Source: Candidatus Eiseniibacteriota bacterium
GTDB lineage: Bacteria > Arandabacterota > Arandabacteria > JAGLYR01
Direction: 5' to 3'
Length of the DNA stretch: 17,382 nt
Assembly (NCBI GenBank): GCA_023132135.1
Contig: JAGLYR010000023.1
Coordinates: forward strand, 1-17,382
Shown here: positions 7,394 through 13,727 of the stretch, in pieces
Position numbering within the stretch: position 1 is the stretch's first letter
Layout of the letters: every line of letters starts with the position of its first letter
The notes under the pieces: generated by a model
Databases searched by the model: none
What the model was told of the DNA's origin: nothing
The model's input: the letters and a program-made list of their open reading frames with translations, nothing else
Made by a program: the position numbers and the translations under genes

Positions 7394-8398
7394 CTATTCT
7401 ATCCTTCTCCCCACCCTCTCAACGCGCGGCGTCCCCGTATCCGGTTCCATCGACCAGTAGATTACGTCCGCCCGGCCAAGGATGAGGTCCTTGTCCAGGA
7501 AACCGAAGTACCGGGAATCGAGCGAGTTGTCACGGTTGTCTCCCATCACATACACGCTGTCGCGGGGCACGGTCAGGGGACCCCAGTTGGCGTACGGAGA
7601 ATCGATGCCTCCCATGTAGATGTACGGCTCGGGAACCGATTCCCCGTCCAGAATAAGCATGTTCCGCCTCACCTCCAGATGCTGTCCCCCCAACGCCACA
7701 CACCGCTTGATGTAGGCCTGATCCCCTCCATTCGGCGGCGCGAAGACGATGATGTCTCCCCGGGCAACATCCGCAAAATCCATGAACCCAAGGTCGGCAA
7801 TGAAGTAGTCGCCGGGCAACAGCGTCCACACCATCGAGGAGGTCGGCGTTGTGAATGCCCGGAACCGGCTCTTTACCGTAGCGGACGGGAATGTGCTGGA
7901 GACGAGGAGACAGAGAAAGCACAGCAGCGCGAGCAGGCGGGTCCCGGCAGTCTGGGGACGGATCACTTCCACCACCGTGCCCACCAGCTTGTCGTGCCAC
8001 GCCTGTCGCTTCCTGTCCCAGAGAGCCCAGAGGAACCCGACATAGAGCACGCCCTCGGAGAACAGGTAGCAGAGACTCCGGAAGAAACCTTTTTTCAGAC
8101 TGATGGGGGATCTGTCGTCCCGCACGGCCCGGATTCCGAAGACCCATTTCCCTGCCGTCTGACGGCCCTGGGAGTTGAATACTGTGAAGTAGGCCATGGA
8201 CAGGGCTCCCAGTCCGGCCAGGAGAACCAGGTACCCTTTCAGGAAGGAGATAGTCCCGCCAAGCAGGGGCAGTCCCACCAGGACGTGAAGTCCCGCCGTG
8301 TACGTCCAGACGATGAGGAGCAGATCCAGAGAAAACGCGCCGACTCTTTCAACAAAGCCCGCGCGCCACTCATCTTTCAATCCCAGGTATTCCGGCAA
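7394..8398 (-). CDS. lepB: Signal peptidase I with N-terminal RDD membrane domain (fusion)
   Basis: Two domains in 334 aa. Residues 14-146 are an RDD-family membrane domain: RVGAFSLDLLLI at 18-29, then GRQTAGKWVFGIRAVRDD (78-95) and WDRKRQAWHDKLVGTVVE (127-144), with about three membrane helices. A helix at 154-170 then leads to a type I signal peptidase, which removes signal peptides from exported proteins outside the inner membrane. The nucleophile is S188 (SSMVWTL, where Trp replaces the usual Pro of SMxPT). The general base is K231 in YIKRCVALGG, and the last box is GDNRDNSLDSRYFG (286-299). The start codon is TTG, with CAGGGA about 5 nt upstream; the next in-frame Met lies inside the RDD domain. 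It follows lat by 73 nt with no clear terminator. RDD domains are poorly understood; the peptidase call is firm. Confidence 0.92.
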   Translation of the reverse strand: MPEYLGLKDEWRAGFVERVGAFSLDLLLIVWTYTAGLHVLVGLPLLGGTISFLKGYLVLLAGLGALSMAYFTVFNSQGRQTAGKWVFGIRAVRDDRSPISLKKGFFRSLCYLFSEGVLYVGFLWALWDRKRQAWHDKLVGTVVEVIRPQTAGTRLLALLCFLCLLVSSTFPSATVKSRFRAFTTPTSSMVWTLLPGDYFIADLGFMDFADVARGDIIVFAPPNGGDQAYIKRCVALGGQHLEVRRNMLILDGESVPEPYIYMGGIDSPYANWGPLTVPRDSVYVMGDNRDNSLDSRYFGFLDKDLILGRADVIYWSMEPDTGTPRVERVGRRIE

Positions 8399-8471: not shown

Positions 8472-9806
8472 CTAGATCGCTTTCAGACAATCCCCCAGGA
8501 TCCCGATGCAGCGGTCGATCTCGTCAACCGAAATCGTCAGGGCCGGCCGGAACCGGATGCTCCTCACTCCACCCTTGAAGACCAGAAGCTTCCGCTCGTA
8601 CGCCAGATCCACCATCCTGTCCCGTATTTCCGGATTTGGAAGACTGAAGGCCGCAAAGCATCCCCTCCCGCGGATGTTGGTCACGATCTCGGGGAACTCG
8701 CCGGCAAGCTTCGCCAGACCCGCCAGCAGATGTTCGCCGCTCCTGGCCGCATTCTCAACAAGGTTCTCTTCCTCGATCACTTCCAGATACCGCTGGCAAC
8801 GGACCATGTCCGTGAGGTTCCCGCCCCAGGTCGAGTTGATCCGGCTCGACACCTTGAACACGTTGTCAGGCACCTCGTCAATCCGGCTGGTTACCATGAT
8901 CCCGCAAACCTGGGTTTTCTTGCCAAAGACCAGGATGTCGGGCGCCACATCAAAGTGCTGCCAGCACCACATCTTCCCCGTAGCCCCAAGCCCGGTCTGG
9001 ATTTCATCAAAGATGAGCAGGATCTCGTTCTCGTCGGCAATCTTCCGCAGTTCGACCAAGAATTCCTCCCGGAAGTGGTTGTCGCCGCCTTCACCCTGGA
9101 CAGGCTCGATGATGATGGCGGCAATATCGTCCGGATTGTCGACGATGGCCTTGTGGATCTCGGCGATCGCTTCGGCTTCGATCGCCTGGACCACCGCCAG
9201 GTTTTTCTCGTCCAACGGGAACGTAATCGCCGGGTTCGTAATCCTCGGCCACGAAAACATGGGGAAATACCGGGTCTTGGCAAGATCCGCCGTATTGGTC
9301 ACCGACAGGGTATAGCCGGACCGCCCGTGAAACGCCTGCCGGAAGTGAATGACCTGGTAACCCTTCTCTCCCTTACCCGCGGCCAGGTTCTTCCGGACCT
9401 TCCAGTCGAAGGCTGCCTTCAGCGCGTTTTCCACGGCCAGCGCGCCGCCGGCAATGAAGAAGAGGTGGGCAAACTCATCGGGGACCGCGACCCGGGAGAA
9501 GGTGTCGACGAACTGCGCCATTTCCACCGAGTATACGTCCGAGTTGGTGGGTTTGTTCACGGCCACCCGGCCCAGCTTCTTCATGAACTCGGCAGTAGTC
9601 AATTTCGGGTGGTTGTACCCGATTGGAGACGACGCAAAGAGGGCGAAAAAGTCGAGATACTCCTCGCCCGTAAGAGCGTCGTGAACCCAATTCCCGTGAC
9701 TCTTTTCCACGTCGAAAATCAGAGACATCCCATCGGCCAGCATCTTCTTGCGAAGAACATCGTGAACGTCACCGGGTTTGATCTCCAATCCTCTTGCCAC
9801 CGACAT
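8472..9806 (-). CDS. lat: L-lysine 6-aminotransferase (lysine epsilon-transaminase)
   Basis: PLP enzyme of the class III aminotransferase fold. It moves the epsilon-amino group of lysine to 2-oxoglutarate, giving aminoadipate semialdehyde, which cyclises to piperideine-6-carboxylate. The 444 aa resemble mycobacterial Lat (Rv3290c) closely in FGKKTQVCG, SSRINSTWGGNLTDMVR and GRGCFAAFSLP. With an offset of four residues, K296 matches the PLP lysine K300 and E239 (QGEGGD) matches the substrate-switch glutamate E243 of Rv3290c. D267 (IFDEIQTG) is the PLP-ring aspartate. GAGGTG (9811-9816) precedes the ATG by 4 nt. A second strong site (TTAGGAGG, about 9830-9837) lies further up with no start at the right distance. 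It is 219 nt downstream of the MttB-like gene with a possible terminator between, so it may be a separate unit with the signal peptidase gene. Confidence 0.93.
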   Translation of the reverse strand: MSVARGLEIKPGDVHDVLRKKMLADGMSLIFDVEKSHGNWVHDALTGEEYLDFFALFASSPIGYNHPKLTTAEFMKKLGRVAVNKPTNSDVYSVEMAQFVDTFSRVAVPDEFAHLFFIAGGALAVENALKAAFDWKVRKNLAAGKGEKGYQVIHFRQAFHGRSGYTLSVTNTADLAKTRYFPMFSWPRITNPAITFPLDEKNLAVVQAIEAEAIAEIHKAIVDNPDDIAAIIIEPVQGEGGDNHFREEFLVELRKIADENEILLIFDEIQTGLGATGKMWCWQHFDVAPDILVFGKKTQVCGIMVTSRIDEVPDNVFKVSSRINSTWGGNLTDMVRCQRYLEVIEEENLVENAARSGEHLLAGLAKLAGEFPEIVTNIRGRGCFAAFSLPNPEIRDRMVDLAYERKLLVFKGGVRSIRFRPALTISVDEIDRCIGILGDCLKAI

Positions 9807-10025: not shown

Positions 10026-11486
10026 CTAACACGGCAGCTTCTCGACCCCTTTCCTCTCCCCCTCGTCAGTGATGATCTTCCGCAACGTCTTCACCACCGC
10101 CTCTTCCAGATGCGGCTCGACGTCCTTCTCGAGAAGGCGTTGCACCTCGTCGTTCGCCCTTTCCAGGGCAGACAGAGATCCCCGCTTCAGCCACTCCTGA
10201 TCCGTTGAGCGGTCGATGCTCTTCCCCGGGAAGTAGAATTCCTCCCGGAACCAGCGCAGCGTACTGGGATGAGAGAGGAGATGGTTCTCTTTGAAGAAGT
10301 CATGGAGCTGTTCCGTGGCCATGGGGAACTCGCGGGGTTCCACCCCCCGCACGAGCCTCAGGGCCATTCCGCAGATCTCGTTGTCGATCACCAGCTTTTC
10401 GAGACTCTGGCAGTTCTCGAAAGCCAGCATCCCCGGGCCGGAAACCACGTTCACACCACAGAGCGCGGCCATGAGGGCTCCCATCCCCGACTCCAGCCCG
10501 CCTTGCGCATCGGGCATCTTCGAATCGCTGAGAGCCATGTACGCATGAGTCGGAAGACCCAGCGTCTTGCCTATCTGCGTGTAGGACGCATCGATCATCA
10601 TCGTCTCGATGGCGCCCATGGGCGTGGTGCCTTTTTTCATGTCGAAGATGGAGGGGGAACCGCCGTAGATGACCGGCGATCCGGGCTCCGCCAGCTGGGC
10701 GATCACAACCCCGCTCAATGTCTCCGCAGTGTGCTGGACAATGGATCCGGACAGCGTCACCGGGGCTGTCGCCCCGGACAGCGGCATGGACACGAACTCC
10801 GAGGGAATCCCTGCCCGGGCGCAGTCCAACACGCTCTGGCAGGTGAGATGGCTCCACTTCAGTGGCGGCGAGGGGCAGGCGTCGAAGATGGCCAGGGGTT
10901 TTTCCCTGAGCGCATCTTCGGAGCCCCGGACAGCGACCAGCATGTCCTTCATGGGCTGGAAGGCATCCACCTCGAACGTGCCTGTCACCACCGGCTTCGG
11001 ACAGTGGAGTAACCCGAGATACAACCTGTAGCGGTCGGCGAACCCCTCAGGGATGTCGGAGGGAACTACACCTGTACTCTGGGCAGCATAGTTCTTGAGG
11101 CGGGCCGTGAGCTTCACGAAGGAGACGACATCCACGGACGTCGGCTTGCGAATCGTCTTCGCGTCGTAGTCGTAGACGTTGACGGCGGCCGAACCGGGAT
11201 CAAAATGCACGTTATCGCCCGCCAGGTCCATGGCCGGATCGCCGGCGGCGTCGAATACCTGGATGGATTTCGGGGCTTTCCCCAGCGAGAGACGCACCAG
11301 GTCCTCACCGATGCGAACCCGCCGCTCGGCCTGGTCCACCTTGCACCCTGCATCCGCCAGAAGCGAGAAGGCTTCGCCGTTCTCAACAAAGACACCGATT
11401 CCCCCGAGGATCTCCATGGCCTCCGAGATGATCTTTTCCACCAGGTCGGGTGACAGCATTTCCAGCTTCGGGCGTCTGGCTTTCAT
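10026..11486 (-). CDS. MttB/COG5598 superfamily corrinoid-dependent methyltransferase (non-pyrrolysine)
   Basis: Members of this family move a methyl group from a methylated amine to the cobalt of a partner corrinoid protein; the founder MttB uses trimethylamine and pyrrolysine, others such as MtgB use glycine betaine. The 486 aa cover a full-length member: GSAAVNVYDYD (near 128), GATAPVTLSGS followed by TAETLSGVVIAQLAEPGSPVIYGG, and GGLESGMGALMAALCGVNV with a later SLEKLVIDNEI. The frame has no internal amber codon and TAG is the usual stop here, so pyrrolysine is very unlikely. The ATG has GGAGG about 7 nt upstream. It is the last gene of the operon, 45 nt after the reactivation-domain gene, with a 9-nt repeat pair in that gap. 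The substrate cannot be read from sequence; a quaternary amine (betaine type) is the best guess. Confidence 0.9.
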   Translation of the reverse strand: MKARRPKLEMLSPDLVEKIISEAMEILGGIGVFVENGEAFSLLADAGCKVDQAERRVRIGEDLVRLSLGKAPKSIQVFDAAGDPAMDLAGDNVHFDPGSAAVNVYDYDAKTIRKPTSVDVVSFVKLTARLKNYAAQSTGVVPSDIPEGFADRYRLYLGLLHCPKPVVTGTFEVDAFQPMKDMLVAVRGSEDALREKPLAIFDACPSPPLKWSHLTCQSVLDCARAGIPSEFVSMPLSGATAPVTLSGSIVQHTAETLSGVVIAQLAEPGSPVIYGGSPSIFDMKKGTTPMGAIETMMIDASYTQIGKTLGLPTHAYMALSDSKMPDAQGGLESGMGALMAALCGVNVVSGPGMLAFENCQSLEKLVIDNEICGMALRLVRGVEPREFPMATEQLHDFFKENHLLSHPSTLRWFREEFYFPGKSIDRSTDQEWLKRGSLSALERANDEVQRLLEKDVEPHLEEAVVKTLRKIITDEGERKGVEKLPC

Positions 11487-11513
11487 GCAATATCCTCCAC
11501 AAGGTGTTTTCTC

Positions 11514-11531
11514 AATCTGCGTAATCTGCGG
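11514..11531. repeat. Two tandem 9-nt units AATCTGCGK inside the operon
   Basis: AATCTGCGT (11514-11522) and AATCTGCGG (11523-11531) fill the gap between the stop of the reactivation-domain gene and the Shine-Dalgarno site of the MttB-like gene. From memory this belongs to the same class of 9-nt-period intergenic repeats as the CACGAAG array at 3552-3578. Confidence 0.5.
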
Positions 11532-12164
11532 CTATTCTCTTCTATAGCGGCAGTCTTCCATGTCACACCGGCTGCAGAGAGTCGCGCAGCGGGGCGGCTT
11601 GGGATTGGGGCCGAAGTTGATACCAAAGGACACCGACTTGCGGGGCTTCATCATCATCGAATCCGAGAGTCCCACGTCAATTCTTCCGCCATCCAGAACA
11701 TCGAAGAGCAATCTCTGCCCTTCCAGCTCCCACTCCGCATAGCCGGGGGAAAAACGCGCGCTTGCCCGGAGACCCTCACCGCCTTCCTCCGCCTCCATCC
11801 GATCGTCCAAGACACGGGCCGCTGCCTCCGTCATTTCTGATCCCACGGCATCCAGTACAACGCCCCGGACCAGCTCACCCTCCCTCATCAGCTCGGCCAC
11901 CCTATCCTCAAGGTCCGGACCGATCGTGCAGATGCACAAACCCACCCGGATCGCAGATTCAAAGGCGGGGTGGTTCGGCAACCGATCGCTATCGAAAAAC
12001 CCGTACACACCTCTCGCCCTGGACAGAACTCTCGCATCGTCCAGCGCCTGGCGGATCAGACCCAGCGTCCAGGCGCCGGGATCCTTCCGGGTCTTTCCCC
12101 TCCGGAGGAGGCGCAGGATTTCATCCTCCTGGGGTTCGACCTCAATGGCCTCCACGACCGTCAC
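11532..12164 (-). CDS. Stand-alone MetH-type B12 reactivation (activation) domain protein
   Basis: The 210 aa match the C-terminal activation domain of cobalamin-dependent methionine synthase (Met_synt_B12 family), which binds SAM and reductively remethylates cobalamin oxidised to the Co(II) state. Key marks are the core ending in RFSPGYAEW (compare RxSPGYxxxPD of MetH), SDSMMMKPRKSVS near the C-terminus, and a final CATLCSRCDMEDCRYRR cysteine cluster seen on stand-alone versions. The likely start is GTG at 12164 with GAGG 6 nt upstream. An ORF extension to 12275 is antisense-like Arg/Trp-rich sequence inside the previous gene. It overlaps the 3' end of the homocysteine methyltransferase gene by 23 bp, so translation is probably coupled. 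Its natural partner is the corrinoid protein two genes upstream. The electron donor (flavodoxin or ferredoxin) is not encoded here. Confidence 0.85.
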   Translation of the reverse strand: MTVVEAIEVEPQEDEILRLLRRGKTRKDPGAWTLGLIRQALDDARVLSRARGVYGFFDSDRLPNHPAFESAIRVGLCICTIGPDLEDRVAELMREGELVRGVVLDAVGSEMTEAAARVLDDRMEAEEGGEGLRASARFSPGYAEWELEGQRLLFDVLDGGRIDVGLSDSMMMKPRKSVSFGINFGPNPKPPRCATLCSRCDMEDCRYRRE

Positions 12165-13041
12165 GGCGCGCCTCGATTTCCAAAGCCATCTGCCGGATGA
12201 ACTCAGGCGTCGTACCACAGCAACCGCCCACCAGACCAGCGCCCGCGTCCAGCATCCGGCCGACCCACCCGGCAAAATCCGCGGCTTTCACGGAGTATAC
12301 CGTTTCCCCGGCCTTCAGCTCCGGCTGCCCCGCATTCGCCTGGACCAGGATAGGCAAAGACGTCAGCGGGCGGATAGTCTCCAGGAGATCCAGCATGTCC
12401 TCGGGTCCCAGCGTGCAGTTGGCTCCGACCACCGACGCGCCGGCCTCTTCCAGTGCAGCCAGGCATCCTTCCGGCTGATTCCCCATCAGCGTGAAAAACC
12501 CCCGGGGCTTCCTGTCAAACGTCATCGTGGCGGTGACGGGAAGGCCGGTGGCCCCGGCCGCCGAGACAGCGGCCCGAGCTTCTTCCAGGCCGTACATGGT
12601 CTCGACAGCAAGAAGATCGACGCCCGCGCCCGCAAGAATCCCGGCCTGCTCGGCAAAGATCTCCTTCAGCTCCTCGTAGGAAACCTCACCCGGGAGTCCG
12701 GTGACCTTTCCTGTGGGGCCGATGTCTCCGGCAACGAACTTCCCTTCGGGCCGGACTAAGACAGCCAGATCCGCCCCGGCGCGATTCAGTTCAACGACGC
12801 GATCACTCAGCCCCTTGGCGCCCAGCTTGAGCCGTGTGCCGCCGAAGGTGTTGGTAGTAACTACATCCGCGCCGGCTTCGTAGTAAGCTCGATGCGCACT
12901 GCGGACCACATCCCGCCGGTCGACATTCCACGGCTCCGGCGCCTCTCCACTCGCCAGCCCCTGGGCAATCAGCAGACTCCCCATCCCGCCGTCGAACAGG
13001 ATGGGACCTTGTTCAATCCGTTTGAGAAAACCAGTGGCCAT
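12142..13041 (-). CDS. Homocysteine S-methyltransferase (MetH N-terminal module type)
   Basis: Zinc enzyme of the homocysteine methyltransferase family (BHMT/MmuM/MetH N-terminal module), transferring a methyl group to homocysteine to make methionine. From the ATG at 13041 it is 299 aa, one (beta/alpha)8 barrel. ILFDGGMGS near the N-terminus, TNTFGGTRLKL, then GANCTLGP and GGCCGTTP supply the three zinc cysteines (C209, C274 and C275 in this numbering). GNQPEG resembles the substrate loop of MetH. The folate, cobalamin and activation modules of MetH are absent, and the latter two are encoded next door. A TTG start at 13074 with AGAGG 8 nt upstream is also possible and adds 11 residues. It lies 44 nt (11 nt from the TTG) after the corrinoid gene. 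It could instead use S-methylmethionine, but the neighbours favour methyl-corrinoid. Confidence 0.88.
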   Translation of the reverse strand: MATGFLKRIEQGPILFDGGMGSLLIAQGLASGEAPEPWNVDRRDVVRSAHRAYYEAGADVVTTNTFGGTRLKLGAKGLSDRVVELNRAGADLAVLVRPEGKFVAGDIGPTGKVTGLPGEVSYEELKEIFAEQAGILAGAGVDLLAVETMYGLEEARAAVSAAGATGLPVTATMTFDRKPRGFFTLMGNQPEGCLAALEEAGASVVGANCTLGPEDMLDLLETIRPLTSLPILVQANAGQPELKAGETVYSVKAADFAGWVGRMLDAGAGLVGGCCGTTPEFIRQMALEIEARRDGRGGH

Positions 13042-13085
13042 CACTTCGCTTCCCTGTGCGGAACCCGCGGCCAAGGGTCTTTCCT

Positions 13086-13727
13086 CTACGCCACCAGGCT
13101 CCTGGCGACTTCAACCGCTGCAACAGCCGACTCGCCGTAACCATCCGCGCCAATTTCATCCGCCCAGTCCTGGCTCACGGGCGCGCCGCCCACGATCACT
13201 TTGGCCGGGATGCCCCGCTCCCTCAGGAGATCCACAACCTTCTTCTGGCCGACCATCGTCGTCGTGAGAAGAGCCGACATACAGACCAGCTCGGCTCCTG
13301 TCTCCTTCGTTTTCTCTACGAACGTCGTGACGGGCACGTCGGCGCCCAGATCCGTGACCTCAAACCCATAGGCCGTCATCATGGCCGCAACCAGGGTCTT
13401 GCCGATGTCGTGGATATCGCCCTCGATAGTCCCGATCACGGCTCTGCCCAGCCGCTTACGATCCTGGCCCCCGGCAAGAATGGCCGGCTCGATCACAGCC
13501 AGGGCCGCTTTCATCGCTTCGGCGCCACGGACCAGCTCCGGCAGAAAGTACTCGCCATCTTCCCATAGCCGGCCGACGTGCTCGATCCCCTTGACAAATC
13601 CCTCGTCCAGGATCTTGTTCACATCCACTCCGGCAGCCAGTCCCTTCTCCGCCAGATTCCTGGCCGCGTCGCTGTTTCCCTGGATCACAGCTTCCCGCAT
13701 TTCCTTCAACAGTGCCTCACTGTTCAT
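13086..13727 (-). CDS. Corrinoid (methylcobalamin-carrying) protein, MtgC/MttC type
   Basis: Methyl carrier of two-domain type in 213 aa. The first half is the four-helix cap domain (MNSEALLKEMREAVIQG to YFLPELVRGAEAM). The second half is the Rossmann-like B12-binding domain with the DxHxxG signature D104-I-H106-D-I-G109, where H106 is the lower cobalt ligand. SALLTTTM and GGAPVSQDWADEIGADGYGE follow, closing over the nucleotide tail. This is the layout of MtgC, MttC and the cobalamin module of MetH. The ATG at 13727 has CGAGG about 9 nt upstream; the longer frame to 13835 runs through the promoter region and is rejected. It is the first gene of the operon, so it should be made in the largest amount, suitable for a carrier shared by three enzymes. 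Confidence 0.93.
   Translation of the reverse strand: MNSEALLKEMREAVIQGNSDAARNLAEKGLAAGVDVNKILDEGFVKGIEHVGRLWEDGEYFLPELVRGAEAMKAALAVIEPAILAGGQDRKRLGRAVIGTIEGDIHDIGKTLVAAMMTAYGFEVTDLGADVPVTTFVEKTKETGAELVCMSALLTTTMVGQKKVVDLLRERGIPAKVIVGGAPVSQDWADEIGADGYGESAVAAVEVARSLVA

Follow-up and report, generated by a model that had tools for sequence, protein, structure and literature searches.

The nearest described system to the gene set analyzed here is MtgBCDE of Ruegeria pomeroyi, in which methionine synthesis and growth on glycine betaine both require the corrinoid protein MtgC and the pterin protein MtgD, and in which RamA and a DUF1638 protein are the proposed repair proteins (PMC12478193). Phaeobacter inhibens has the same split enzyme as Ruegeria and no PF02965 member (PMC5764234). 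In both organisms, one corrinoid protein is shared by methionine synthesis and betaine demethylation. The DNA examined in this study is a stretch of 17,382 nucleotides from a Candidatus Eiseniibacteriota bacterium (C146:1-17382, analyzed whole and called the window below; host assembly of 3.4 Mb, 96% complete), which carries four genes encoding a corrinoid protein, a homocysteine S-methyltransferase (HMT), a free-standing MetH-type activation protein, and a methyltransferase of the MttB superfamily. Like the split MetH of Ruegeria and Phaeobacter, the set has separate PF06253, corrinoid, and PF02574 proteins; unlike it, the window set is a compact cluster with a PF02965 protein, no pterin module found, and no MetF, whereas the known systems use MtgD (PF00809) together with RamA and DUF1638, lack PF02965, and often have scattered parts. 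The reading that we consider most likely, and towards which we lean, is that the window set is a folate-free, split B12-dependent methionine synthase made of four subunits.

Compared with MetH, the homocysteine, cobalamin, and activation modules are all recognizable as separate proteins; the window set consists of four chains rather than one and has an MttB-like enzyme instead of the pterin-binding module. A separate activation domain is already known in Thermotoga (TM0269). With MtgABC of Desulfitobacterium and MtqABC of Eubacterium limosum, the window set shares a non-pyrrolysine MttB-superfamily enzyme and a corrinoid protein. In contrast to the window, which has HMT and a PF02965 protein, these systems pass the methyl group to folate by MtgA or MtqA and are reactivated by RamA or RamQ. 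MtgA has no sequence identity to solved folate methyltransferases (PMC7154762). The core methionine synthases MesA-MesC are folate-independent, MetE-like (PF01717) enzymes, whose methyl group is believed to be supplied by a corrinoid protein (PMC7857596). The window set would share with them both the independence of folate and the corrinoid-derived methyl group, whereas its acceptor enzyme is MetH-like (PF02574) and has its own dedicated corrinoid and donor enzymes. To an earlier, sequence-only reading of this DNA, the exact four-part set was not known as a characterized pathway, and we found no published account of it in the open-access literature, most subscription papers lying outside that search; the link of an MttB-type enzyme with split methionine synthase parts, on the other hand, was already known (PMC12478193).

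The four genes and their proposed reactions

The four genes lie on the minus strand from 13727 to 10026, in the order corrinoid protein, HMT, activation protein, and MttB-like enzyme (Table 1). This is the place, order, and strand given by the sequence-only reading, and the Pfam families of all four products were matched above cut-off. The corrinoid protein scored 98.8 bits with B12-binding and 74.3 bits with B12-binding_2, both above the curated cut-offs, and 216.3 bits (cut-off 215.3) with TIGR02370, the NCBIfam model of methyltransferase cognate corrinoid proteins. Of 55 relatives, all or nearly all keep its motif, G102-D103-x-H105-D106-x-G108. HMT matched PF02574 with 230 bits, again above the curated cut-off, and its closest solved structure is the N-terminal half of Thermotoga MetH (1Q7M). 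The three zinc cysteines of HMT, C214, C279, and C280 (numbered on the 304-residue translation from 13056), are present in 39 of 40 relatives.

Table 1. Positions of the four genes of the set and of the adjoining transaminase gene in the window.
Feature	Coordinates	Strand	Evidence
Corrinoid (B12-binding) carrier protein, MtgC/MtbC type, with DxHxxG motif (GDIHDIG)	13086..13727	-	PF02310, PF02607, TIGR02370
Homocysteine S-methyltransferase (HMT), MetH-type module	12142..13041	-	PF02574, structure match 1Q7M (MetH)
Free-standing MetH-type activation (S-adenosylmethionine-binding) domain, SPGY motif, C-terminal CxxCxxxxC	11532..12164	-	PF02965
Non-pyrrolysine MttB-superfamily methyltransferase (TIM barrel)	10026..11486	-	PF06253, model, Leu at pyrrolysine column
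L-lysine 6-transaminase, next gene downstream of MttB	8472..9806	-	TIGR03251, 660 bits (cut-off 520.8)

The activation gene has a GTG start at 12164, overlaps the preceding HMT gene, and is spaced 45 bases from the MttB gene. Its product scored 28 bits with PF02965, barely above the cut-off of 25. By sequence, its single clear solved relative is TM0269 (1J6R), the activation domain that Thermotoga methionine synthase has as a separate protein. When an AlphaFold model built from 30 sequences (mean predicted local distance difference test score, pLDDT, of 91) was searched with Foldseek, 1J6R ranked first and MetH activation domains came next, and the fold thereby confirmed the MetH-type reactivation domain first recognized in the sequence. 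The S-P-G-Y of the S-adenosylmethionine (SAM) site, an RxxxGY-like motif, is nearly invariant in 45 relatives. The protein also ends in a CxxCxxxxC motif (11532-11600, minus strand), which is found in many relatives of both gene orders described below and is lost in the Aminicenantes group. The motif is possibly a metal or iron-sulfur site; we know of no site of this kind in MetH.

The MttB-like protein matched PF06253 with 292 bits, above the curated cut-off, and its AlphaFold model (pLDDT 91) aligned with MttB (7XCL) and MtgB (9YCE/2QNE) at a template modeling (TM) score of about 0.92. The barrel also bears a weak fold likeness to dihydropteroate synthase. A pyrrolysine enzyme was ruled out: across 82 family sequences, the column of the pyrrolysine is occupied by Leu, Met, or Phe, with Leu in the window protein, whose gene has no in-frame amber codon. 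The pyrrolysine insertion element PYLIS_3 was matched above the Rfam threshold inside mttB-like genes without an amber codon (L058, L061, L062, L063, L070, L055, L122, L125, L090, L087, and L095), where the model seems to pick up homologous mttB coding sequence rather than an element.

In the methyl flow, reaction direction, and repair chemistry that we infer for these proteins, the MttB-like enzyme would methylate the Co(I) corrinoid of the carrier at the expense of a quaternary amine or some other methylated amine, and the MetH-type zinc enzyme would use the methyl group on Co(III) to turn homocysteine into methionine. The activation protein would bind SAM and, with an outside electron donor, re-methylate corrinoid that had slipped to Co(II), SAM being the methyl source predicted from family membership. 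A quaternary amine is the plain expectation for the donor, and glycine betaine is the plainest guess. In a comparison with two characterized enzymes only, MtgB and the pyrrolysine MttB, 29 columns with a conservation of 95% or more across the family, including S99, F171, F201, W211, Y316, S349, and E357, differed from both. These distinct columns argue that the family as a whole acts on a single substrate, not necessarily glycine betaine.

Methionine and folate genes of the host and its phylum

The host genome was examined by profile searches of the assembly, the controls of which matched where expected. No complete MetH was found: apart from an unrelated B12 domain, the MetH profile matched nothing but two genes of the window, and the best match to the MetH family TIGR02082 scored 161 bits against a cut-off of 1010.85. 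Nor was a MetH-type pterin module (MetH 343-588) found in the genome, an MtgA-type folate methyltransferase not having been searched for. A complete MetH or a MetH-type folate module elsewhere in the genome, which would have counted against the sequence-only reading, was accordingly not encountered. The sole PF00809 protein (C126) gave a strong, full-length Pterin_bind match and is of the dihydropteroate-synthase type. Further, the searches yielded no MetF and no PF01717 protein, and the absence of PF01717 means that the host has no MetE, split MetE, or Mes. By the profiles used, folate-linked methionine synthesis in the host is thus without its reductase and without its acceptor module, and the joint lack of MetF and of MetE or Mes fits a by-pass of folate. 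The genome has one MttB gene and encodes a pyridoxal phosphate enzyme of the methionine gamma-lyase/cystathionine gamma-synthase kind. RamA and DUF1638 proteins were both absent from the window contig, and no genome-wide search for either was made.

Among eight genomes of the host phylum, the host included, MttB is present as a single copy in seven, MetH was detected by profile search in none, and MetF was not found in six; PF01717 is absent from all seven relatives. The gene set is common in the phylum, and the tight cluster is not. PF02965 was matched above cut-off in the host genome only. In the main family of the phylum, the corrinoid-HMT pair instead adjoins a BadF-type (acyl-CoA dehydratase activase-like) ATPase (PF01869, with TIGR00241 above cut-off; L033:4146-5099, L034:5332-6291, and L036:4937-5914), which is possibly a new type of corrinoid reactivator. 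The MttB gene of this family is located beside rlmN and a gene for an ArsR-type regulator. In the phylum relatives, the MttB gene is divergent from the gene of this regulator (L039:6359-6943, L040:4163-4591, L043:4122-4700, and L044:2340-2768), and rlmN mostly follows the MttB gene; the regulator may belong to the SahR kind, which acts in the methionine cycle. Within the phylum, G007 has both a pterin module and MetF. Another genome, G002, encodes a protein in which HMT is fused with methylenetetrahydrofolate reductase (HMT-MTHFR; L045:1433-3352), and carrier genomes from other phyla commonly encode proteins that equal it in size and make-up.

Recurrence, repair proteins, and surroundings of the set

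A profile of the MttB proteins of the host phylum, run against 84,980 species genomes, gave 240 relatives, and the best 80 of them, with up to 10 kb of flanking sequence on each side, were taken as the locus set. Because these loci were reached via MttB, picked by MttB similarity alone, they give no information on how frequently the other three genes occur without it. When the neighbors in the 80 loci were clustered, the only families occurring in more than 12 loci were MttB (75), the corrinoid protein (54), the activation protein (46), and HMT (39); the next commonest families reached 12 loci, and their distances and strands show no link. All four genes are on one strand in 30 of the 80 loci, mostly within 3.5 to 5 kb. 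This recurrence rules out a chance neighborhood, and the four-gene arrangement pointed out in the sequence-only reading proved to co-occur strongly in relatives, where its parts are inherited together.

The set is carried by Zixibacteria, Aminicenantes, WOR-3, Cloacimonadota, Bacteroidetes, Asgard archaea, and others. The order corrinoid-HMT-activation-MttB is found in the window, Zixibacteria, a WOR-3 genome, Latescibacterota, and Asgard archaea, and the order MttB-activation-corrinoid-HMT in WOR-3, Stahlbacteria, Cloacimonadota, Zixibacteria, Bacteroidetes, Spirochaetes, and others. In a maximum-likelihood tree of 84 MttB proteins, the two gene orders are parted by a branch with 100/100 support. 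We also analyzed 50 other carrier genomes. MetF is present in 30 of them and PF01717 in 12, and MetH was above cut-off in seven among the matches listed. Eighteen of the 50 carriers have neither MetF nor PF01717 nor, among the matches listed, a complete MetH. These include all six Asgard genomes tested, as well as CP070686 (G047, WOR-3) and CP070750 (Aminicenantes, with scattered parts), which are single contigs labeled chromosome. At least one of the 18 (G011) has a pterin module, and the genomes without any folate module therefore number fewer than 18. In some carriers, no methionine synthase other than the set was found. The clearest case is the Asgard genome G012, with exactly two MetH-like pieces among the matches listed, both in the cluster, and no MetF.

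A RACo/RamA-like protein (PF14574, PF17651, and a 2Fe-2S domain) is encoded in seven loci, five of which have no activation gene; in L060, L072, L096, L118, and L121, this activase is found beside corrinoid and MttB genes with PF02965 absent. Since RACo/RamA often replaces PF02965 in loci without an activation gene, the PF02965 protein fits a role in corrinoid repair. Were corrinoid repair the task of the PF02965 protein, one would expect just such a pattern, with PF02965, RACo/RamA, and the BadF-type ATPase as interchangeable candidate reactivators.

The L-lysine 6-transaminase gene of the window was considered as a fifth part. It adjoins MttB at only one other locus, in a KSB1 genome (L071:3445-4776), and was therefore left out of the core, to which it probably does not belong; the two cases leave a link to methylated lysine or pipecolate possible. 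At 7394-8398 of the window (minus strand), a single frame fuses an RDD membrane domain (PF06271) with a type I signal peptidase domain (PF10502), an unusual combination. Rfam scans of the window, eight same-phylum loci, and 18 other loci revealed no SAM or cobalamin riboswitch, which ruled out a methionine-linked riboswitch near the set.

Alternative readings and implications

Several points speak against a folate-free methionine synthase. In the main family of the host phylum, the MttB gene is apart from the corrinoid-HMT pair. Among the matches listed, a full MetH occurs in seven of the 50 carriers, and MetH-like or HMT-MTHFR fusion proteins occur in others. It would be unusual for a free-living cell to rely on outside betaine for its methionine, and, given the 29 differing columns, the substrate may be no known betaine. 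A corrinoid:folate methyltransferase of the MtgA kind, which has no sequence likeness to PF00809, would also escape the PF00809 and MetH profiles used on the host genome. This last point bears on a catabolic demethylation as in Desulfitobacterium, where the methyl group would go to folate via a separate MtgA/MtrH-type methyltransferase and HMT would serve a side branch, and the bacterial non-pyrrolysine MttB enzymes characterized in the papers cited here do feed folate (PMC7154762, PMC8604678). We consider such a pathway unlikely, as no MtgA/MtrH-type gene recurs within 10 kb in the 80 loci, whereas HMT does, and as the host is without the MetF needed for the usual oxidation of methyl-folate. 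The carriers with MetH do indicate that the set is not everywhere the sole synthase and that methionine supply is not its obligatory role everywhere; in those genomes, it may serve betaine use or a second supply of methionine.

It is quite unlikely that the set is a split synthase of the Phaeobacter and Ruegeria type, using both folate and betaine, whose pterin module is encoded elsewhere and was missed. Ruegeria MtgBCDE does both with scattered parts (PMC12478193), a pterin module and MetF do occur in the host phylum (G007), and about 4% of the metagenome-assembled genome of the host may be missing; however, the host gave no MetH-type pterin match and no MetF, and the same is true of the Asgard genome G012. 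Very unlikely, too, is a takeover of the folate role by the MttB-like protein, with a methyl-pterin or another internal methyl carrier as the donor. One MttB clade with deeply conserved distinctive residues in very different organisms is what a universal donor would give, and the barrel weakly resembles the dihydropteroate synthase fold, but MetF, which would make methyl-folate, is absent from the host and from 20 of the 50 carriers, MttB and MtgB are much the closest in fold, and all characterized MttB-like relatives known to us use amines. Most improbable of all is that the PF02574 protein is a corrinoid-independent betaine-homocysteine methyltransferase (BHMT) and the other three genes encode an independent demethylase: Phaeobacter Bmt uses betaine and dimethylsulfoniopropionate (DMSP) directly in vitro (PMC12366255), and HMT moderately matches the NCBIfam betaine-homocysteine model NF005718, but at 210.8 bits against a cut-off of 338, while the MetH module is structurally closer, BHMT aligns over the first 230 HMT residues only, and the corrinoid protein is the constant next-door partner of HMT.

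For the folate-free split synthase, we tentatively advance, as a serious possibility, a wider proposal: that the set is self-contained, folate-free, and B12-dependent, that it includes a new MttB subgroup, and that it may be the sole methionine route in several uncultured phyla and Asgard archaea. If so, those organisms would tie their methionine supply to a methylated osmolyte and not to one-carbon (C1) folate. If the reading as a folate-free split synthase is right, an annotated gap would be filled: genomes without MetE, MetH, or MetF, commonly counted as methionine auxotrophs, would turn out to have a complete synthase. To our knowledge, most members of the broad MttB-superfamily branch have no known substrate, and this branch would gain a function and an acceptor. 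Methionine synthase would then be seen to tolerate an exchange of its methyl-donor half, with the acceptor, carrier, and repair parts retained, and an exchange of the repair part as well.

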